NCBI GenBank assembly: GCA_024413595.1 | Contig: JAKSUC010000012.1 | Span: forward strand, 1 to 64,000 | Length of the DNA: 64,000 nt | From: Bacteroidales bacterium | GTDB taxonomy: Bacteria > Bacteroidota > Bacteroidia > Bacteroidales > UBA3824 | Reading direction: 5' to 3' | Shown: in pieces, positions 39,202-48,078 of the stretch | Position numbering within the stretch: position 1 is the stretch's first letter | Layout: each line of letters opens with the position of its first letter | Notes under the pieces: generated by a model | Told to the model about the DNA's origin: nothing | Database searches by the model: none | The model's input: the letters and a program-made list of their open reading frames with translations, nothing else | Translations under genes and position numbers: made by a program

Positions 39202-39299
39202 TATGTTTTTATGCATAGCATTGCATAAAAACATACCTATTTTATGTATCTTAATACATAAAAATACCGTTGTTTTATGCATTGTATTGCATATATTAT
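39202..39299. repeat. Array B: three 33-bp palindromic units upstream of an ATPase gene
   Basis: Unit 1 is a perfect palindrome with arms TATGTTTTTATGCA (39202-39215) and its complement (39222-39235). Units 2 and 3 are similar (TTTTATGTA..TACATAAAA and TTTTATGCA..TGCATA). The A of TTTATG recurs at 39211, 39244 and 39277, an exact 33-bp period. The -7 box follows directly (39300-39307). The array could be read as a hydrophobic N-terminal extension of the ATPase, but its promoter position rules that out. Confidence 0.85.
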
Positions 39300-39307
39300 T
39301 ATATTTG
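39300..39307 (+). promoter_or_regulatory. -7 box of the ATPase gene at 39326
   Basis: TATATTTG, 18 bp before the ATG, the same spacing as at the ATPase gene at 15206. It lies at the gene-side end of array B. Confidence 0.6.
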
Positions 39308-39325
39308 CATCAAAACTCATTTGTT

Positions 39326-40585
39326 ATGGACTTAGACTTAATCAAACATATTATAGTAACTAACAGAAATTCAGTATGTAATATAAAATTAGTTAAAAGA
39401 AATTTTGATTTTGACAATTCTTTAAATTATGTACTTGTTGGAGTTAGACAAGCAGGAAAATCGTTTCTTCTTTACCAAATAATTCAAGAAATAGTAAGTC
39501 AAGGTGTTGATATTAAAAGTATTGTGCTAATTAATTTTGATGATGAACGACTTGCAGAGATTACTGCCCAAGATTTAAATTCAATAATTGAAGCTCATTA
39601 TCAAATGACTGACGTTAAACCTATTTTCTTTCTTGATGAAATTCAAAATGTTAAATATTGGGAAAAATTTGCACGTAGATTAGCAAATGAGAAATATCAT
39701 GTTTTTGTAACAGGTAGCAATGCAAAAATGCTCAGCAACGAAGTTGCAACAACTTTAGGCGGAAGATATTTACAAAAATTTATCTATCCTTACTCATTTT
39801 CTGAATATCTTAATGCTATAAATTTCAAATTTATAGATAGTTGGCAATATGATAATATATTTTTAAGTAAACTTAAACGAGAGTTTCAATCATATTTTTA
39901 TTTTGGTGGGTTTCCTGAATTAGTAAATACAAACTTAAAAAGAGAATGGTTATCTGGATTGTTTCAAAAAATATTTTTGGGTGATATTATTTCTCGTTAT
40001 CACATTAAAAATGACGACATTTTAAAAATTTTACTCAAAAAATTGGCAGAGAGTACAATGCAACCTACCTCTTATTCGAGACTTGCTAATTTAATAACCT
40101 CAACAGGACGAAAAATACAAACTAATACAATTATTGATTATTTGAAGTTTTCAGAAGACTCATGGTTAATATTTTCAATTCAAAATTTTTGTGCTAAACT
40201 ATCTGAAAGAGAAAGCTCAAAAAAATACTATTTCCGCGACAATGGAATTATTAATTTATTTTTGTTTAATTCTGATACTATTTTGCTTGAAAATTTGGTT
40301 GCTATTCATTTAAAACGACTTTATAACGATGATTTGTATTTTTTTAGACAAAATATCGAGATTGACTTCTATCTTCCAGAAAATGGTAAACTTATTCAAG
40401 TTTCATATAAAATTCAAGATGATAAAACTTTTAATCGAGAAATAATGGCTCTTATTAAAGGTGCTAAATTTTTAAATGTTAATGATCTTACCATTATTAC
40501 TTACGATGATGAACAGCAAATTATTCAACATGATAATTATACCATTAAAATATTACCATATTGGAAATTTTGTTTAATTAATTAA
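39326..40585 (+). CDS. AAA ATPase of the AAA_14/DUF4143 family
   Basis: About 419 residues from the ATG at 39326 (MDLDLIKHIIVTNRN). Walker A is GVRQAGKS (39-46), Walker B PIFFLDEIQN, and the arginine segment FVTGSNAKMLSNEVATTLGG is as in AAA_14. The DUF4143 part follows with the winged-helix-like region (PTSYSRLANLITSTGRKIQT) and a degenerate nuclease pattern at the end (EIDFYLP, LIQVSYKI; the usual Glu before x-Lys is missing). This family is abundant in anaerobes and of unknown function. The in-frame ATG at 39203 is inside array B and upstream of the -7 box, so I do not use it. Confidence 0.85.
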   Translation: MDLDLIKHIIVTNRNSVCNIKLVKRNFDFDNSLNYVLVGVRQAGKSFLLYQIIQEIVSQGVDIKSIVLINFDDERLAEITAQDLNSIIEAHYQMTDVKPIFFLDEIQNVKYWEKFARRLANEKYHVFVTGSNAKMLSNEVATTLGGRYLQKFIYPYSFSEYLNAINFKFIDSWQYDNIFLSKLKREFQSYFYFGGFPELVNTNLKREWLSGLFQKIFLGDIISRYHIKNDDILKILLKKLAESTMQPTSYSRLANLITSTGRKIQTNTIIDYLKFSEDSWLIFSIQNFCAKLSERESSKKYYFRDNGIINLFLFNSDTILLENLVAIHLKRLYNDDLYFFRQNIEIDFYLPENGKLIQVSYKIQDDKTFNREIMALIKGAKFLNVNDLTIITYDDEQQIIQHDNYTIKILPYWKFCLIN

Positions 40586-40690
40586 TATTGTTATAATAAT
40601 TAACTCTAATATTGATAATATTTTAATCTTTATATTGTTTTGTAAATAAAACTTATGATTTAGTTTATTGTTAATTTTGCATTCCACAAT

Positions 40691-40804
40691 AAAATTACGA
40701 ATTTACAAAATTGAATTTTGATAAATTCGTGATTTTTTATAATCCTAAAACAATATTAGCATCAATATTTAAATTTTTAGCAATTAATCGAGCAACTTTG
40801 AGTG
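40691..40804. repeat. 114-bp direct repeat, copy 2
   Basis: Counterpart of 39082-39195. It now gives the ATPase gene a terminator hairpin and carries the same fragment of an HTH gene on the minus strand, here with more of that gene preserved beyond the repeat. Confidence 0.85.
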
Positions 40805-40913
40805 TAGGTTAATATTTCTATTCTTGCAAAGCCACTTTTGTTTCAACAAGATTTTCTGCATATTCTTTTAGTTTTTGTTCTGAAATATTTATAAATATAA
40901 TTAGTTTTTTCAT
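40737..40913 (-). pseudogene. Remnant of a small XRE-type HTH regulator gene
   Basis: An ATG at 40913 starts MKKLIIFINISEQKLKEYAE and runs 31 codons to a stop at 40818. In another frame the end TLKVARLIAKNLNIDANIVL follows and stops at 40737; it resembles the C terminus of HigA/XRE regulators (compare TLKIARLLCKELDILPSEIL in the gene at 62975). The HTH core is deleted. Its 3' end is duplicated at 39129-39195. Confidence 0.55.
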
Positions 40914-40987
40914 AATTATATTCTGATATCGGAATTTAAAAAAAATCATTGAATTAAATTTTATTTATTTTATATGTTAATTATTTG

Positions 40988-41064
40988 TTTTTCGAATATT
41001 TATTAATATTTTTGAAACAAACTTTTGAACATTTTGTGACAAAGATTTGAACATTTTGCGACAA
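40988..41064. repeat. Direct repeat flanking the ATPase gene, upstream copy
   Basis: A 77-bp stretch beginning TTTTTCGAATATTTATTAAT aligns without gaps, at roughly 75-80% identity, with 42321-42397 on the other side of the ATPase gene. It includes the first units of array C. Confidence 0.7.
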
Positions 41065-41121
41065 AGATTTGAACATTTTAACGATTACTTTTGAACATTT
41101 TACATTAATGATTTTAACATT
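41022..41121. repeat. Array C: five 22-bp units upstream of an ATPase gene
   Basis: Core TTTTGAACATTTT. The G of GAACATT (T in the last unit) stands at 41027, 41049, 41071, 41093 and 41115, an exact 22-bp period that runs up to the ATG at 41122. A -7 box TACTTTTG (41086-41093) is formed by the junction of units 3 and 4, so array and promoter coincide. The units are not clear palindromes, unlike arrays A, B, D and H. Confidence 0.85.
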
Positions 41122-42315
41122 ATGGAATTATATAAACGACAACAATACAATATTTTAATTGATAGGTTAAAAGAACCACGACACTTTATACAAGTAATTG
41201 TAGGTCCACGACAAATAGGAAAATCTACATTAATTAAACAAGTTGTAGATAATATTTCTATTCCTCATTATTTGTATAATGCTGATACAGTTGATTTTAA
41301 TAATAATCAATGGATTTCTGAAACTTGGGAATCTGCAAGAGTTCGTATGAAATATGAAAAAGTTAATGAAGTAATTCTTGTTTTTGACGAAATTCAAAAA
41401 TTGAAAAATTGGAGTGAATTTGTAAAACGAGAATGGGACTTTGATACTCTTAATGAAATCAATATTAAAGTTGTTTTACTTGGTTCTTCTAGATTACTTT
41501 TAAAACATGGTTTAACAGAATCTCTAGCTGGAAGATTTGAACTTATTCGTATGGGGCATTGGTCTTATACTGAAATGAATGAGGCTTTTGGATATTCACT
41601 TGACGAATGGATCTATTGGGGAGGATATCCCGCTTCTACTATTTTTAAAGATGATATCAGACGTTGGAGAAAATATGTTAAAGACTCTTTAATTGCTCCT
41701 GCAATTGAAAAAGATGTTATTTTAACTTCAAATATCTATAAACCTGCTCTTATGAAACAACTTTTTGAAATTGGGTGTAGTTATTCTTCTGAAATTGTCT
41801 CGCTTACTAAAATTCTTGGACAAATGACTGATGCAGGTAACGTTACTACTCTGTATTCTTACCTTGAAATTTTAAATCAATGCAATCTTTTATGTGGAAT
41901 CAATAAATTTGCTAATGATGTTTCGCGTAAATATCAATCTATTCCAAAATGGATTACATATAATAATGCGTTACTTACTGCATATAAAGGAATTGATTTT
42001 AAAACTGATCGTTTTGATACTAAAAATTGGGGACGTTGGGTTGAATCTGCTGTTGGCGCATATATTATTTCTCAAGCTGAAGATGAAGATATTAAAGTTT
42101 ATTATTGGAGAGAAAGAGATGAAGTAGTAGATTTTATTTTGCAATATCATGCTGATATTGTGGCTATTGAAGTTAAAAGTGGTCGTCGTGGAATGAATAA
42201 GGGACTTCCTAATTTTTCTAAAAAATTTAATCCAAAACGTGCCATTATTGTTGGTACAAATGGAATTCCTTTAGAAACTTTTTTTAAGGTTAATATCTCT
42301 ACTCTATTTGAATAA
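41122..42315 (+). CDS. AAA ATPase of the AAA_14/DUF4143 family
   Basis: A 397-residue protein. Walker A GPRQIGKS (28-35), Walker B VILVFDEIQKL, sensor segment KVVLLGSSRLLLKHGLTESL. The C-terminal part has a full PD-(D/E)XK-like pattern: VVDFILQYHADIVAIEVKSG, with Asp, Glu and Lys in place. It is one of the more compact members of the family. The ATG follows the last 22-bp unit at once, so leader and array overlap. A related repeat stretch lies 5 bp after the stop. Confidence 0.87.
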   Translation: MELYKRQQYNILIDRLKEPRHFIQVIVGPRQIGKSTLIKQVVDNISIPHYLYNADTVDFNNNQWISETWESARVRMKYEKVNEVILVFDEIQKLKNWSEFVKREWDFDTLNEINIKVVLLGSSRLLLKHGLTESLAGRFELIRMGHWSYTEMNEAFGYSLDEWIYWGGYPASTIFKDDIRRWRKYVKDSLIAPAIEKDVILTSNIYKPALMKQLFEIGCSYSSEIVSLTKILGQMTDAGNVTTLYSYLEILNQCNLLCGINKFANDVSRKYQSIPKWITYNNALLTAYKGIDFKTDRFDTKNWGRWVESAVGAYIISQAEDEDIKVYYWRERDEVVDFILQYHADIVAIEVKSGRRGMNKGLPNFSKKFNPKRAIIVGTNGIPLETFFKVNISTLFE

Positions 42316-42320
42316 AATTT

Positions 42321-42397
42321 TTTTTCGAATATATTATTAATATTTTTAACCGAACTTTTTAACATTTTAAGATTACATCTTAACATTTTGCAATCTG
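42321..42397. repeat. Direct repeat flanking the ATPase gene, downstream copy
   Basis: Counterpart of 40988-41064; it keeps two to three array C-like units (CTTTTTAACATTTT, CTTAACATTTT) at 22-bp spacing. Confidence 0.7.
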
Positions 42398-42533
42398 AAA
42401 AAAAATGAATGTTAGACAATTATACATTTGTGAAAAAAAAAGAATGTTTATATAAAACTAAAACTCTAAGCTTGTTGTATCGTCATGAAATATAAGAAAC
42501 TTGTTGTTTAATAATATGTAAATTTTTTTATAA

Positions 42534-43064
42534 TTAAAATTGTTGAAAATTTATAGTTATATTTTCAAATCCCATAGATTTTAGAATTTTAATCATTTCT
42601 TGTTCTGAATTAATTTTTGCTTCTTCAAAACCATTATTATTTTTACATTCTTCAAGTATTTTTTCATTAGCTTCTTTATCCAATTGTGCGCGTTCTTCGT
42701 TAGTAAATGAACCTACTTCTTGATATCTTTGATTAGTTATAAATCCATTTTTCGAATTTAATATAATAATTTTTGTATTGATTACAACTGTTTTACCATT
42801 ATCAGACACAATGCTATTAAAGGTGTTTTTATCGAAATCAATTCCTAAATCAACGTGTCCTTCATAAAAACCAACAAGTTTATCATTAAAGAAAGTTCCT
42901 TCTTTTTCGTGTTTTACTTTAATATTCCCATTTTCATATTTGTAAAATCTTATTTGTTTTAATTGCGCTATTTGTTCTATACTAAGAGTACATTCAGTAC
43001 TATTACATGAAACATAAAGTATAGATATGATTATTGCATAAATGTATTTTATTATATTTTTCAT
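42534..43064 (-). CDS. DUF4230-like lipoprotein
   Basis: A 176-residue predicted lipoprotein: hydrophobic leader with lipobox ending YVSC (Cys20). The body resembles DUF4230 proteins (strand-rich part around VDLGIDFDKNTFNSIV and KTVVINTKIIILNSKNG, then a helical end with EERAQLDKEANEKILEECK). Function unknown; likely anchored in the outer or inner membrane. It is paired with a second such gene 4 bp upstream. Confidence 0.65.
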   Translation of the reverse strand: MKNIIKYIYAIIISILYVSCNSTECTLSIEQIAQLKQIRFYKYENGNIKVKHEKEGTFFNDKLVGFYEGHVDLGIDFDKNTFNSIVSDNGKTVVINTKIIILNSKNGFITNQRYQEVGSFTNEERAQLDKEANEKILEECKNNNGFEEAKINSEQEMIKILKSMGFENITINFQQF

Positions 43065-43068
43065 ATTT

Positions 43069-43617
43069 TTAATAATTTATAGTGGAAGTATAACCAAAAC
43101 TACTTATTAATTCAGTTAAAGATTTTTGGGCATAATCTTTAGCTTGAAGTTGATATTTTGAAAGATTGTTCAAAACATCGTTAGAACAATTGTCTTTTGC
43201 TTCTTTTGCAAGTTCTTCGTATTCTTCAGCACTGAAATCTTGTCGAAGAATACCAATCTTACTTTCTGCATTTTCCCAATCAATTTTAACTGCGTCTATT
43301 TCAAATCTTGCATCAGGCAATGTGAATTGAATAGTTTTATTTTGTTCGTCAATGTTTACATCTTTTAATTCAGAGCAATAAACAGCCCCCTTAATAGTTA
43401 TTTTGACTGGTAATAAAATTTCACGAGCCATCAATCGATCCCCAAATTTTAAATTTGAATTATTTTTTTTTAATGTTGAGTTGTAATCTATTTCTGTTGT
43501 ATAAAATACAACTTCTTTATTGATAGCAGTCTTTATATCTCTATATTTAGAACCTCCACAACTTGCAAATAAAACAATTGCAAGAAAAACTAAATGAATT
43601 TTATTAAAATTTTTCAT
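43069..43617 (-). CDS. DUF4230 lipoprotein
   Basis: A 182-residue predicted lipoprotein with the lipobox LFASC (Cys20) followed by GGS. The middle has the DUF4230 pattern: EILLPVKITIKGAVYCSEL, then TIQFTLPDARFEIDAVKIDW, then a helix rich in Glu and Ala. DUF4230 proteins are common in Bacteroidetes and have no known role. It is the first gene of a two-gene operon with 42534-43064. Confidence 0.72.
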   Translation of the reverse strand: MKNFNKIHLVFLAIVLFASCGGSKYRDIKTAINKEVVFYTTEIDYNSTLKKNNSNLKFGDRLMAREILLPVKITIKGAVYCSELKDVNIDEQNKTIQFTLPDARFEIDAVKIDWENAESKIGILRQDFSAEEYEELAKEAKDNCSNDVLNNLSKYQLQAKDYAQKSLTELISSFGYTSTINY

Positions 43618-43747
43618 ATTGTATTAAGATATTAGTTTTATTAGATAATGTAATTAAATCTACTTTAGTATAATACTATTTTTAGAATATTCTCCCCAGC
43701 CACTAGGTTAAATTTATAGTTTCTTTTACATCTTCACCTAACTACAT

Positions 43748-43783
43748 AAAAAAAGCGTGGGACTCTGTTGACTCGTCCACGCT
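43748..43783 (-). terminator. Terminator of the RNA candidate
   Basis: Stem AGCGTGG/CCACGCT with a 16-base loop that holds GACT/AGTC pairs, followed by a run of T on the minus strand. Confidence 0.8.
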
Positions 43784-44037
43784 ATTAGGTCTTCGCATTA
43801 CCTTCCAAGTAGAACGAGCAACACGAATACCTCACGCAATGTGGCATTATAATAAAACCACACCATATCCAAAGCCAAATTTGGCTATTGAATATGGTTG
43901 GCGTATAATACACCATGTGAGGCATTCACCGTTGCTTTGTTTTGACTTGGAGTTTTTGAATTTGCGAAGTTCAATAGCGTCAAAACTAAAGCGTCAAGTA
44001 AACGCCTTTTTTATGTATGCTGTCTGTTTTTGTTTTA
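43748..44037 (-). ncRNA. Structured non-coding RNA candidate, about 290 nt
   Basis: The region is richer in G and C than its surroundings and has a promoter box at one end and a terminator at the other, both on the minus strand. Internal complementary pieces include CCTCAC/GTGAGG (43831 and 43916 areas), CCATAT/ATATGG enclosing the perfect palindrome AGCCAAATTTGGCT, and the repeated GACGCT motif near the 5' end. The plus-strand frame through it (98 codons) starts without signals and ends in a hydrophobic low-complexity tail, so coding is unlikely. It is not tmRNA, RNase P RNA or 6S RNA as far as conserved sequences show. Class unknown. Confidence 0.6.
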
Positions 44038-44043
44038 GACAAC

Positions 44044-44051
44044 CAAATATA
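44044..44051 (-). promoter_or_regulatory. -7 box of the RNA candidate
   Basis: TATATTTG on the minus strand; the expected start of the RNA is near 44037. The -33 element is not clear. Confidence 0.5.
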
Positions 44052-44333
44052 CGATTTTTTTTTCTTGTAAGCATAATATTTCCTCTGTTTTTTTTTATTT
44101 CTCTTTCACAAATTTACCAACTTATTTTCACCTAATTCGCAAAAAAATGTATCCAATTTGGAGACAAAACAGAGAATTTATCTATAATTTCAAAATCGAT
44201 TTTTATCTTTTTGTAAATAAAAATAATATGCAAATTTTATATAATATCTAGAACAAATAGTGTTTTTAAATTAATATTTTTGAATTTGTTTAATTAATTA
44301 TGTATTAATGTTTTAGTCTATTTTTTATAATTC
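44052..44333. other. AT-rich spacer
   Basis: Beyond the promoter of the RNA candidate, I see no gene or repeat before the palindrome at 44334. Confidence 0.4.
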
Positions 44334-44380
44334 AATAACGGGCGAAATCTCATTTATTTTAGTAGATTTCGCCCGCTATT
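44334..44380. repeat. Downstream palindrome matching array D
   Basis: Arms AATAACGGGCGAAATCT (44334-44350) and AGATTTCGCCCGCTATT (44364-44380) are the same as the units upstream of the ATPase gene at 44394-45827. It begins 14 bp after the stop codon, so the gene is bracketed by the same palindrome on both sides. It may also end transcription. Confidence 0.85.
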
Positions 44381-44393
44381 GATATAATTTTTA

Positions 44394-45827
44394 TTAATTA
44401 TTAAATAAATCGTTCATGGTTACTACATTTTGTATAATAGATGTATGTTCATTAAATTTTAAGCCGTAAGTTGTAATCAGTACTGGATGAATTGTAAGTT
44501 TAATTTTATTAGAATTTCTAAAAATTTGAATTCTTCTGTTTAAATCTTCTGCTTCTTTTTTGTTTAAAATGTATTCTGTTTCACAAAATTTCATTTCACA
44601 AACATTAATAATTCTATCTGCACGTCGAATTAAAAGGTCAATCTGTGCTTTTCCCAATTCATTATTATTACTCCAAGCAAAAACTTCTGTCATAACACCT
44701 GCAATTTGTAATTTATGTTCAATTTGCAAATGATGAAGCAAGCAAACTTGCTCAAATGCAATACCAATCCATGCTTCATATTTTCCTGTTCCGATTTGAT
44801 AACGCCAAATTTCTTTTTCATTATGTCCATACTTCTTTATAAACCTATTATAAAATAATGTAAAAGGGTCAATTAACTGATATATAGACATTTTTGATAA
44901 TTTGTCATAACCTCTATAACGTCTAATTATATAACAATTTTCAAGATCGTCTAGTATATTTTTTAAATGTCCATTGTCTAAGAGTTTTGAATTTGAAATA
45001 ATTTCTTCTTTAGTAAGACCTTTGTTTTTTGTTGCTAATGCTTCAATAACCTTTAAATATGGTTCTGGATTATCATACAATGATGCAAAAAGTTCATTAT
45101 ATTCGTTTTCGAGACTACCATTTCGTACAAAAAATATTTCATCAATATTTTGAGAAATACTTTTTCCTCGTTGTATTTGTTTGAGATAGAAAGGAATACC
45201 TCCCATAATCATATATGCTTCCAATATATCTCTATCTGTAAAAACGATATTTCTGCTTTGTAAATATTCTTTACTTTCTGATAGTGTGAAAGGTTTTATG
45301 TATACTTTATAGTCTGCTCGATTATGAAGTCCTCCATGACTTTTTAAAATTTTTTTAGTTATCCATGATGTTGCAGAACCACAAACAATTAGAATTATAT
45401 TACTTTGTGTTGTTCCCCAATCATTCCAAAAATGTTCTATGGCAGTAATAAGGTTGCTTTTGGGTGTATCCATCCATGGAAGTTCATCTATAAATACAAC
45501 TTTTTTACCTTTTATTTTTTTGTTTTCTAATAGATTTCGAAGATAATCAAAAGCTTCCATCCAAGTTTTAGGCGTTTGATAAATAGGTTCGTTTGCATAA
45601 CGATTTAATGCTGTACAAAAGTTTTGTAATTGTTCTTGTTTTGATTTTTTGGATAATCCTGTACATTTAAATGCAAAATTATTGTCGAAATATGAATTTA
45701 TAAGAAAAGTTTTTCCTACGCGTCTTCTTCCATAGACAACAACAAATGACGACTCTTTTTCATTTGTTATTGCATTTAATTGTTCTATTTCTTTTTTCCT
45801 ACCTATCATTCTGTCAATATGTGCCAT
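44394..45827 (-). CDS. AAA ATPase of the ATPase_2/DUF234 family
   Basis: A 477-residue protein. Walker A GRRRVGKT (33-40), Walker B KVVFIDELPWMDTPKS, sensor segment LIVCGSATSWITKKI and the HGGLHNR motif. The C-terminal third has AQIDLLIRRADRIINVCEMK, a PD-(D/E)XK-like pattern in which Asp, Glu and Lys are kept. The gene is a clear paralog of 15206-16654 and the ancestor type of the broken copy at 54735-55246. A good promoter lies between it and array D. Function unknown; see the array finding. Confidence 0.87.
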   Translation of the reverse strand: MAHIDRMIGRKKEIEQLNAITNEKESSFVVVYGRRRVGKTFLINSYFDNNFAFKCTGLSKKSKQEQLQNFCTALNRYANEPIYQTPKTWMEAFDYLRNLLENKKIKGKKVVFIDELPWMDTPKSNLITAIEHFWNDWGTTQSNIILIVCGSATSWITKKILKSHGGLHNRADYKVYIKPFTLSESKEYLQSRNIVFTDRDILEAYMIMGGIPFYLKQIQRGKSISQNIDEIFFVRNGSLENEYNELFASLYDNPEPYLKVIEALATKNKGLTKEEIISNSKLLDNGHLKNILDDLENCYIIRRYRGYDKLSKMSIYQLIDPFTLFYNRFIKKYGHNEKEIWRYQIGTGKYEAWIGIAFEQVCLLHHLQIEHKLQIAGVMTEVFAWSNNNELGKAQIDLLIRRADRIINVCEMKFCETEYILNKKEAEDLNRRIQIFRNSNKIKLTIHPVLITTYGLKFNEHTSIIQNVVTMNDLFNN

Positions 45828-45847
45828 AGCTAAATATTTTTACGATA

Positions 45848-45878
45848 CAAATATAGATATAAGATTTGATAAATACAA
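45848..45878 (-). promoter_or_regulatory. Promoter of the ATPase gene next to array D
   Basis: TATATTTG (45848-45855) with TTG 20 bp upstream (45876-45878). Array D begins 2 bp beyond the -33 element, the position of an upstream activator or repressor site. Confidence 0.7.
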
Positions 45879-45880
45879 CT

Positions 45881-45979
45881 AATAGCGGGCGAAATCTCAG
45901 TTTTTTTATTAGATTTCGCCCGCTATTGATTTTATAACGGGCGAAATCTAATTTTTTTTAGTAGATTTCGCCCGCTATT
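45881..45979. repeat. Array D: two 52-bp palindromic units upstream of an ATPase gene
   Basis: Unit 1 has perfect 17-bp arms AATAGCGGGCGAAATCT (45881-45897) and AGATTTCGCCCGCTATT (45911-45927). Unit 2 has arms at 45934-45949 and 45963-45979. GGGCG recurs 52 bp apart (45887 and 45939). The GC-rich arms stand out in this AT-rich DNA. A third copy lies beyond the 3' end of the gene (44334-44380). Confidence 0.9.
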
Positions 45980-46042
45980 AATTATTTTTTTTTATAATTT
46001 TAATTTATATAATTCGTTTATTAATTATAATTATTAATAAAA

Positions 46043-46579
46043 ATGAAAATTCTTATTTTATCAGGTAGTCCACGAAATGGTGGAAATACAGATTTACTTG
46101 TAGAAGCATTTTTTGATGGTGCTAAACAAAATAATGATGTTGAAATTGTTTCGGTTCATGATTATAAAATTTTACCATGTATAGGTTGTAATTCTTGTTT
46201 TAAAAATGCTAGCAATTCATGTTTTCAAAACGATAAAATGTCTTTAATTTATAATAAACTTTCTGAAACTGAATTACTTGTAATTGCTTCTCCTGTTTAT
46301 TTTTATGGTTTAAGTTCTCAACTAAAAGCTATAATAGATCGTTGTCATAATCCAATTCGTAATAATTTTAAAATTAAAAAGTTAGCATTATTTCTTGTTG
46401 GTGCAGCTTCTTTGCCTGAACTTTTCGATAGTATTATAAAACAATATGAATTATGTCTCAATTTTTTTCATTTAGAAGACGCAGGAAAAATTCTTGTTCG
46501 TGGCGTTAAAGACAAAGGTGATATTAAAAATACAAACGCTTTAGAAGAAGCTAAAAAATTGGGAGAAAGAATTAATTAA
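46043..46579 (+). CDS. NAD(P)H-dependent FMN reductase (flavodoxin fold)
   Basis: A 178-residue flavoprotein with the FMN phosphate loop SGSPRNGGNTD, the ASPVYFYGLSSQLKAIIDR segment and a central cysteine group (CIGCNSCFKNASNSC), as in iron-sulfur flavoprotein-like NADPH-dependent FMN reductases. It probably reduces quinones, iron or small aromatic compounds. It lies between ATPase loci and appears to be transcribed alone. The cysteines may ligate a cluster or only be redox-active. Confidence 0.85.
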   Translation: MKILILSGSPRNGGNTDLLVEAFFDGAKQNNDVEIVSVHDYKILPCIGCNSCFKNASNSCFQNDKMSLIYNKLSETELLVIASPVYFYGLSSQLKAIIDRCHNPIRNNFKIKKLALFLVGAASLPELFDSIIKQYELCLNFFHLEDAGKILVRGVKDKGDIKNTNALEEAKKLGERIN

Positions 46580-46628
46580 TGAAAATTTTAATCTTATTTT
46601 GTTAAAAATATAACAAAATTCAATTTTC

Positions 46629-46745
46629 GCCGTAACATTTTTGAAAATTTTATATTTTATTGCCGTCTCTTTTTTGAAATTTTTATTATCTTTGCCGTAA
46701 CATTTTTGGAAATTTCGCAATTTTCCGCCGTCTCTTTTTTTAAAT
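46629..46745. repeat. Array E: four units of about 33 bp, two alternating types
   Basis: Units begin GCCGTAACATTTTTGAAA or GCCGTCTCTTTTTTGAAA in the order 1-2-1-2. GCCG stands at 46629, 46662, 46694 and 46727 (spacing 33, 32, 33), so the larger period is 65 bp. A -7 box TATCTTTG (46687-46694) lies at the border of units 2 and 3, which puts the last two units in the transcribed leader. The ATPase start follows at 46753. Confidence 0.85.
46687..46694 (+). promoter_or_regulatory. -7 box inside array E
   Basis: TATCTTTG, 58 bp before the ATG of the ATPase gene. The -33 element is not clear. Confidence 0.45.
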
Positions 46746-46752
46746 CTACATT

Positions 46753-48078
46753 ATGAAATATTATAAACGATATATTGATAGCGAATTATTGAAGTGGAAA
46801 AATTCTGAAACTCATAAACCTTTGCTTTTAAGAGGTGCACGACAAGTAGGAAAATCTTCTGCCGTTAAAAATCTTGCAAAATCTTTTAAATATTATATCG
46901 AAATAAATTTTGAACGTCAAAATGAAATTTCTGATATTTTTTCTAAAGGTTATGATATTCAAAAGATATGCAACCTGTTGTCTATAATATTTAATACACC
47001 TATTAATGATGGCGAAACTTTGATTTTTTTCGATGAAATTCAAAAATGTATTCCTGCAATTTCTTCACTGCGCTTTTTTTATGAAGATAAACCAAATTTA
47101 CATGTAATTGGTGCTGGATCTTTATTAGAATTTGCTCTAAATGAAATACCTTCGTTTGGTGTTGGACGCATACATTCTTTATTTATGTATCCATTTTCGT
47201 TTGATGAATTTCTTATTGCTCAAGGTTTTGAAAACTTAGTAAACGAAAAACATGATGCTTCTCCACAAAATCCTCTTCCTAATATTTTACACAATAAGTT
47301 AGTTGAAGAATTTAAAAATTTTATACTTGTTGGAGGTATGCCTGAAGTTGTTTCTATTTGGATTAAATCTCAAAATTATTTTGATTGTCAGAATATTCAT
47401 TCAGAAATTATTCAAAGTTATCAAGATGATTTTGCTAAATACAAAAAAAGGATTTCTCCTCTAATTTTACAAAAAACATTTTTGTCAGTTGGTATGCAAA
47501 CTGGTTCGAAATTTACATATTCTCAAATAGATACAAATATTGATACGTCAAAGGCAAAAGAAGCTATTAATTTATTAACACTTGCAGGAATAATTATACC
47601 TGTTACTCACACATGTGCTAATGGAATTCCTCTTGGAGCACAAATTAACGAAAAGTTTCAAAAATATCTTTTTATTGACTCTGGATTAATGTTAACAATG
47701 CTTGGTACTGATTTAAGCAAATTTGTATTAGCAAACGAAGTAGAACTTGTAAATAAAGGTGGTGTTGCAGAACTTGTTGCAGGACTTGAACTACTAAAAA
47801 ATTTAAATTGTAATCGCCGTCAAAATTTATATTATTGGCAACGTCTTCAAAGAGGTGCTCAGTCTGAAATTGATTATGTAATTGCTAACAAAGATCAAGT
47901 TTTACCTATAGAAATTAAGGCTGGAACTAAAGGTTCTATGCAAAGTCTTTATATTTTTCTTGAAGAAAAAAAACTTGAATATGGAATTCGTTCATCTCTC
48001 GAAAATTTTGCAGAGTATAATAAAGTTAAAGTAATTCCTTTATATGAAATTGGGAGATTAGGAATAATTAATAATTAA
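46753..48078 (+). CDS. AAA ATPase of the AAA_14/DUF4143 family
   Basis: A 441-residue protein. Walker A GARQVGKS (28-35), Walker B TLIFFDEIQKC, sensor HVIGAGSLLEFAL, then the family motif GRIHSLFMYPFSFDEFL. The C-terminal DUF4143 part ends with SEIDYVIANKDQVLPIEIKA, a complete PD-(D/E)XK-like pattern. This is a typical member of the subgroup with a GVGR..M.P.SF.EFL motif. It starts just after array E and is followed 30 bp later by a DUF5131 gene, possibly in the same transcript. Confidence 0.88.
   Translation: MKYYKRYIDSELLKWKNSETHKPLLLRGARQVGKSSAVKNLAKSFKYYIEINFERQNEISDIFSKGYDIQKICNLLSIIFNTPINDGETLIFFDEIQKCIPAISSLRFFYEDKPNLHVIGAGSLLEFALNEIPSFGVGRIHSLFMYPFSFDEFLIAQGFENLVNEKHDASPQNPLPNILHNKLVEEFKNFILVGGMPEVVSIWIKSQNYFDCQNIHSEIIQSYQDDFAKYKKRISPLILQKTFLSVGMQTGSKFTYSQIDTNIDTSKAKEAINLLTLAGIIIPVTHTCANGIPLGAQINEKFQKYLFIDSGLMLTMLGTDLSKFVLANEVELVNKGGVAELVAGLELLKNLNCNRRQNLYYWQRLQRGAQSEIDYVIANKDQVLPIEIKAGTKGSMQSLYIFLEEKKLEYGIRSSLENFAEYNKVKVIPLYEIGRLGIINN

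Follow-up and report, generated by a model that had tools for sequence, protein, structure and literature searches.

Introduction

Riboswitches and attenuator leaders such as T-box and ribosomal-protein leaders are 5' leaders in which antiterminator and terminator helices exclude each other and a hairpin with a U-run precedes the controlled gene. The leader family described here shares this plan but differs from them in several respects: it is about 300 nt long, has no known aptamer and stands before mutually unrelated cargo genes, its 3' half is mostly complementary to its 5' half, and an alternative pairing passes the U-run and reaches the start region. In ops/JUMPstart, put and EAR, as here, a common leader element precedes diverse accessory operons, whereas the present leader is much longer, comprises many helices, carries its own terminator-like hairpin and is mostly followed by short operons. 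Few structured leaders of very large size are known to have an interlocked two-state architecture, and little is known of cis-acting RNA control in Bacteroidetes.

Intergenic RNAs of Bacteroidetes derived from comparative genomics include the Rfam families Bacteroidales-1 (RF01693) and Bacteroides-1 (RF01694), both listed in PMC2864571, and DUF805b (RF02914); unlike these, the element has no Rfam match in any copy tested. Candidate structured RNAs of the human microbiome (Fremin and Bhatt, PMC8040213) come from the same kind of source and include Bacteroidetes candidates of 80-132 bp, some of them palindromic with U-run hairpins; none of those described in the main text has this architecture. 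No description of the element was found in Rfam or in the main texts of searchable papers, comparative-genomics surveys of structured RNAs among them. The RNA of about 300 nt, lacking an Rfam match, is apparently uncatalogued. In kind it is a cis-regulatory leader, though an unusual variant in its size, its interlocked architecture, its portability in many copies and its unrelated cargo.

A structured RNA on the minus strand

All coordinates refer to the window, that is, the whole stretch of 64,000 nucleotides analysed, and all parts of the element lie on its minus strand. A sequence-only reading had proposed at 43748-44051 a possible new structured RNA of about 290 nt and higher GC content, by implication free-standing, behind a -7 box and ending at a strong terminator with a T run. 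The Bacteroidetes -7 box has the consensus TAnnTTTG, and the box is indeed present as TATATTTG (44051-44044). The RNA body occupies 44007-43745, with a GC content of 0.39 where the flanks have 0.23 and 0.21, and the long-range complementary pieces that had been quoted (CCTCAC/GTGAGG and CCATAT/ATATGG, together with the palindrome AGCCAAATTTGGCT) are all there. Its fold has an energy of -114 kcal/mol compared with -67.7 kcal/mol for shuffled sequences (z -9.06), and no shuffled sequence folded equally well. A terminator-like stem formed by GCGTGGAC (5' arm, T5) and GTCCCACGC (3' arm, T3) at 43755-43782 is followed by seven T residues at 43748-43754; its long loop is beyond the limits of a simple terminator scan, which reported none.

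Rfam 15 covariance models gave no family at gathering score over the whole window, and in 19 relatives none matched the element at E<=1; the tRNA and tmRNA gene models of ARAGORN were not matched either. The sequence-only reading had likewise not seen the known conserved parts of tmRNA, RNase P and 6S RNA. The 98-aa frame on the plus strand is interrupted in the sister copy, and distances between conserved anchors do not hold modulo 3 (45/45/25 over 115 copies); the frame is therefore spurious, as had been suspected, and a protein-coding plus strand was rejected. Judged from its fold z, the lack of an Rfam match and strong compensatory change in its family, the window element is a genuine structured RNA.

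Family and distribution

At the DNA level, 18 of 59 genomes searched, which comprised the window's own and relatives, gave matches, several in each. A covariance model built from the 5' half of the element only (R1) detected four copies in the window's own genome; in the same genus, 17 of 18 genomes carry between 1 and 20. Copies were present in 34 of 295 sampled Bacteroidales genomes, which agrees with the initial supposition that the element is widespread in this order; in a phylum-wide sample of 296 genomes, only the window's own matched. Since R1 models the 5' half only, the hairpin and T-rich tail found downstream in 171 distinct R1 hits provide independent support; another 11 hits fail the simple detector, which is crude and misplaces some ends.

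A pattern search of public genomes with the 3' half identified at least 120 stretches. Among the 80 matches listed, nearly all carry Bacteroidales names, including Segatella copri, Prevotella ihumii and Bacteroides caecigallinarum, isolates that make the leader testable; two are labelled as Lachnospiraceae or Firmicutes MAGs and were taken for mis-binned contigs. The leader is common in Bacteroides, Prevotella/Segatella, Phocaeicola, Parabacteroides and Muribaculaceae. With one copy as query in 'distant' mode, no plasmid or phage record was matched in PLSDB or INPHARED, and a pattern search of IMG/VR matched three contigs only; carriage by plasmids or phages was rejected on these counts.

The U-run is absent in a few copies, such as L118 and L188, and in the latter the element seems to enter a VWA-domain gene directly.

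Position and promoter

The family precedes genes in a consistent manner. Based on mechanical calls of ORFs and start codons, the next gene is co-oriented with the element in 92 of the 104 copies that have a callable gene, compared with a background of 105/194 (54%) at other gaps of the same loci; upstream genes are co-oriented in 68 of 103 cases. Start codons cluster +240 to +350 nt from a conserved GGCGTT, and the median distance from U-run to ATG is 75 nt. In 125 of 147 copies (85%, against 8% of shuffles) a TAnnTTTG box occurs no more than 140 nt upstream, mostly near -70 from GGCGTT. A second promoter between U-run and ATG was seen in 4 of 115 copies, which is at chance level (shuffling expectation 2.7%).

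These sequence statistics identify the family as a 5' leader, directly upstream of and co-oriented with the next gene, behind its own -7 promoter. From the missing second promoter and a pairing that extends beyond the U-run (see below), we infer that leader and gene are co-transcribed. The notion of a free-standing RNA ending at the terminator had to be abandoned because of the co-orientation, the fixed distance, the lack of a second promoter and the helix past the U-run. The element does lie where it had been placed, and the proposed interval is slightly short: the functional unit extends past the U-run towards the start, at 43617, of a DUF4230 gene encoding a lipoprotein-like product of 182 aa (43069-43617), which is followed by the second gene of the unit, also DUF4230 (42534-43064, 176 aa).

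Two tandem hairpins and their covariation

The core of the leader, found by eye and then counted, consists of two tandem hairpins. Hairpin 1 contains P1 (GGCGTTTAC/GTGAATGCC; 43998-44006 with 43921-43929), P2 (GCTTTGTTTTTGAC/GTCAAAAACAAAGC; 5' strand 43979-43992, 3' strand GTCAAAACAAAGC at 43934-43946) and P3 (43958-43972), whose loop is K5 (CTTCGCA). Hairpin 2 contains P4 (GCGTGGG/CCCACGC), P5 (GTTGCTCGTTC/GGACGAGTAAC; 5' strand 43812-43822, 3' strand GGACGAGTCAAC at 43767-43778) and P6 (AGGT[AATGCGAAG]ACCT, 43787-43803) with loop K3. Loop sequences of one hairpin complement those of the other in three places: K5 with the P6 loop TGCGAAG (43791-43797), Q5 (ACGCTATT, 43973-43980) with Q3 (AATAGCGT, 43779-43786), and R5 (TCCAAGT, 43945-43951) with R3 (ACTTGGA, 43804-43810). 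Variable apical hairpins, which include the AGCCAAATTTGGCT palindrome, occupy 43862-43914. Minimal variants of about 190 nt (L095, L096, L098), compared by eye, keep both hairpins as well as Q, K and R in a quite different sequence.

The compensatory changes in homologues on which the sequence-only reading had made its proposal depend were found in both hairpins. In P1 and P2, 88% of cells are paired and two-sided changes occur in 86 cells versus 25.5 after shuffling, in an alignment that was fitted to the P1/P2 model and is biased in its favour; when partners are shifted by 1-3 columns, paired cells fall to 31-53%. For P2, two-sided changes affect 12 of 14 pairs and 91% of cells are paired. 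In a plain MAFFT alignment, P5 and P6 are paired in 95% of cells (P5 alone, 94.5%), with 31 two-sided changes versus 7.3 in shuffled data. Conserved structure with compensatory changes, a property of cis-regulatory leader RNAs, is thus present, and the many G-U pairs in the helices fit an RNA.

The complementarity between the two hairpins shows most clearly in an alignment-free swap test, in which the pairing of arms within a copy is compared with pairing to arms of other copies. The duplex of 5' and 3' arms averaged -34.8 kcal/mol for own and -23.3 kcal/mol for swapped partners, and the own partner was the best of 147 in 92 cases. The probability that the own pairing exceeds the swapped one was highest for Q (0.991) and R (0.981), followed by the terminator-like stem (0.909), K (0.81), P7 (0.78), the apical helix (0.76; 0.764 to three places) and P1 (0.735). 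Values of just 0.52-0.65 were obtained for P2, S, P5 (coarse), T and P0, in a test that has low power for helices with conserved sequence. For these helices and P1 the evidence is the column counts where these were made, which leaves S, T and P0 weakly supported.

Two competing folds

The helices fall into two mutually exclusive sets with overlapping strands, each covarying and conserved independently of the other, one of which includes the terminator-like stem; this is the arrangement of attenuators and riboswitches. In State I the RNA forms the tandem hairpins P1-P2-P3 and P4-P5-P6, whose loops are complementary. In State II the 5' half is joined to the 3' half in a single long rod, beside the terminator-like stem; here the P1 3' strand becomes part of the S/T stem with 43818-43837, and the P5 5' strand pairs with the 5' half instead. 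Of 60 copies folded, 56 take the rod as their minimum-energy structure. In the window's copy, the rod together with the terminator-like stem has -98.6 kcal/mol versus -95.3 kcal/mol for the two-hairpin form (P1, P2, P5), energies in which loop-loop pairing is not counted. By themselves, its first 100 nt form hairpin 1 at -27.4 kcal/mol. Over the 60 copies, z is -7.4 for the halves folded apart and -8.2 for the whole, with a mean gap of 8.6 kcal/mol. The halves are about as improbable as the whole, and therefore both folds look selected.

The T5-T3 stem lies within the minimum-energy fold of only 13 of 60 copies, and T3 has three alternative partners: T5, the P4 strand, or the P7 site shortly before the start codon. 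The last is a GGGAATC-like site that changes in step with T3 (AAATCCC/GGGATTT, CAGACTCCCG/CGGGAGTCTG, GAATTCC/GGAATTC); it is found in 71 of 115 copies (62%, versus 10% in shuffled sequences) at a median of 25 nt from ATG. In the window's copy the tail site at the P7 position is GGCTGGGGAG (43692-43701), and the pairing with T3 seen in most copies is weak here, consisting only of TCCCA/TGGGG. P7 and P0 are confined to read-through RNA and cannot bring about antitermination. A GC-rich stem before the U-run is possible in both states, as either P4 or T5 can pair with T3, and this is the weakest step of the mechanism proposed below.

Portability and cargo genes

The window's copy leads two DUF4230 genes. 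A sister copy 23 kb away, with 87% identity over -18 to +319, precedes an unrelated gene, and many close pairs of copies have the leader alone in common. Six other genomes of the same genus hold DUF4230 relatives (the best, G012:C61, with 44% identity), but none of these shares a contig with an R1 hit, and conservation of the leader together with this gene was rejected. Unrelated genes behind close copies, together with DUF4230 relatives lacking a copy, lead us to conclude that the leader passed between genes. In 12 groups of close copies inspected by eye there were no shared sharp ends and no target duplications; the edges fade gradually into the promoter or variable 5' hairpin and the tail. 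One copy, L079, resembles L078 in body and gene and L104 in promoter and 5' hairpin, a mosaic that suggests recombination between leader copies at about -14.

Among 88 first downstream genes scanned against Pfam, nine encode BspA-type LRR_5 proteins, and one or a few each encode BACON, Big_2, CsgG, FGE-sulfatase, a TdeIII restriction enzyme, a helicase and kinase domains; second genes include several DNA methyltransferases. There are 61 Pfam families among these 88 genes versus 156 among 88 upstream neighbours, which look like ordinary genes. According to a crude signal-sequence test, an exported-type N terminus is found in 59/99 downstream versus 17/88 upstream products and a lipobox in 13 versus none. 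PADLOC reported a Zorya ZorA with ZorB behind it, an HKD/SNF2 helicase that precedes a type IIG methyltransferase, an AbiP2/DRT-type match, and MADS- and PD-T4-6-like kinases. In one genome with 20 copies, inspection by eye showed several lipoproteins among the led genes, along with three methyltransferase loci, a TonB-receptor-like gene and a CsgG-like operon. The cargo is thus a set of unrelated accessory genes: exported proteins, lipoproteins, BspA-type LRR proteins, restriction-modification and Zorya. Because the tallies from PADLOC and Pfam are of families and not of systems, and several of the matches to kinases and CorA are generic, enrichment of leaders before defence genes is suggestive, not proven.

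An all-against-all comparison of flanking ORFs revealed no recurrent partner; the top one occurs in at most 5 of 42 loci, and a tie to a single enzyme or mobile-element protein was rejected. At five loci (L022, L070, L298, L304, L307) an HTH-like protein of about 85-107 aa (IHIG--IK-EL-RQGRS-VWLA) lies between leader and further genes.

Mechanism and alternative readings

Our preferred reading, held with moderate confidence and built on comparative sequence data, is that this Bacteroidales-specific, multi-copy, portable 5' leader is probably a bistable cis-acting switch, an attenuator-type riboregulator. Hairpin 1 would form first during transcription. If the 3' half then invades it, the rod would arise, P5 would be lost, and T5-T3 with the U-run would terminate transcription or block expression; if hairpin 1 is held by a ligand, a protein or another event, P5 would form, the U-run would be read through and the accessory gene would be expressed. 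The fast-drifting Q and R may serve to keep pairing within one copy where a genome holds many. More tentatively, one RNA switch class could place many non-homologous accessory operons of gut Bacteroidales (antiviral defence, restriction-modification, surface lipoproteins) under one shared intracellular signal, with a copy-specific loop-loop code against cross-pairing. If the leader senses a signal, that signal would amount to a shared on-switch by which gut bacteria turn on surface proteins and antiviral defence, and the RNA would offer a handle on gene control in this phylum.

The leader position, the promoter and the P7 helix close to the start codon would equally suit a constitutive 5' UTR module that senses nothing and serves to stabilise the RNA, to have it processed by a double-strand RNase or to enhance translation, its alternative folds being folding intermediates; the cargo also appears too diverse for a metabolic signal. 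We find this rather unlikely, as two competing helix sets are both kept by compensatory change, and a hairpin with a U-run before the start codon in most copies would be costly for a pure enhancer. Location in leaders of unrelated accessory operons, beside ordinary upstream genes, is also what an element for processive antitermination or recruitment of a NusG paralogue to horizontally acquired operons would show, in the manner of ops/JUMPstart, put and EAR, and Bacteroides uses specialised NusG paralogues. However, many of the units are short (one to three genes, by eye), the known examples are shorter RNAs, and the alternative terminator-like pairing would be superfluous, so that such a role seems improbable.

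Two further explanations carry still less weight. Although a promoter of its own and a U-run hairpin would suit a free-standing small RNA that acts in trans and ends at the U-run, downstream co-orientation, tight spacing, the lack of a second promoter and conserved pairing past the U-run make this very improbable. That a mobile DNA hairpin (MITE or REPIN-like) spreads before genes seems very unlikely: such an origin would account for similar copies sharing little except the leader, for the 1-20 copies per genome and for the leader being an imperfect inverted repeat, but not for the many G-U pairs on one strand, the co-orientation with the next gene, the gradually fading homology with neither target duplications nor sharp common ends by eye, or the lack of a match in PLSDB and INPHARED, with three IMG/VR contigs only.

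Surroundings of the leader copies

The sequence-only reading had noted that the element lies beside an ATPase locus and DUF4230 genes. DUF4230 relatives in the genus are not near a copy, and the neighbouring gene family is incidental. ATPase genes do cluster around the element (39203-48078): AAA_14/DUF4143 genes at 39203-40585 and 41122-42315, an ATPase_2 gene at 44394-45827, and an AAA gene at 46753-48078 that resembles the neighbouring ATPase genes by look. A terminator-like inverted repeat, GCGGGCGAAATCT...AGATTTCGCCCGTTATTG, lies at 44329-44385, after the ATPase_2 gene and upstream of the leader. Some hundreds of bases downstream of two leader copies of the window's genome, off the element, there are sub-threshold matches to DUF805b (RF02914): L002 898-928 (minus strand, 30.8 bits) and L003 908-943 (minus strand, 28.4 bits). 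The former would fall just before the second gene.
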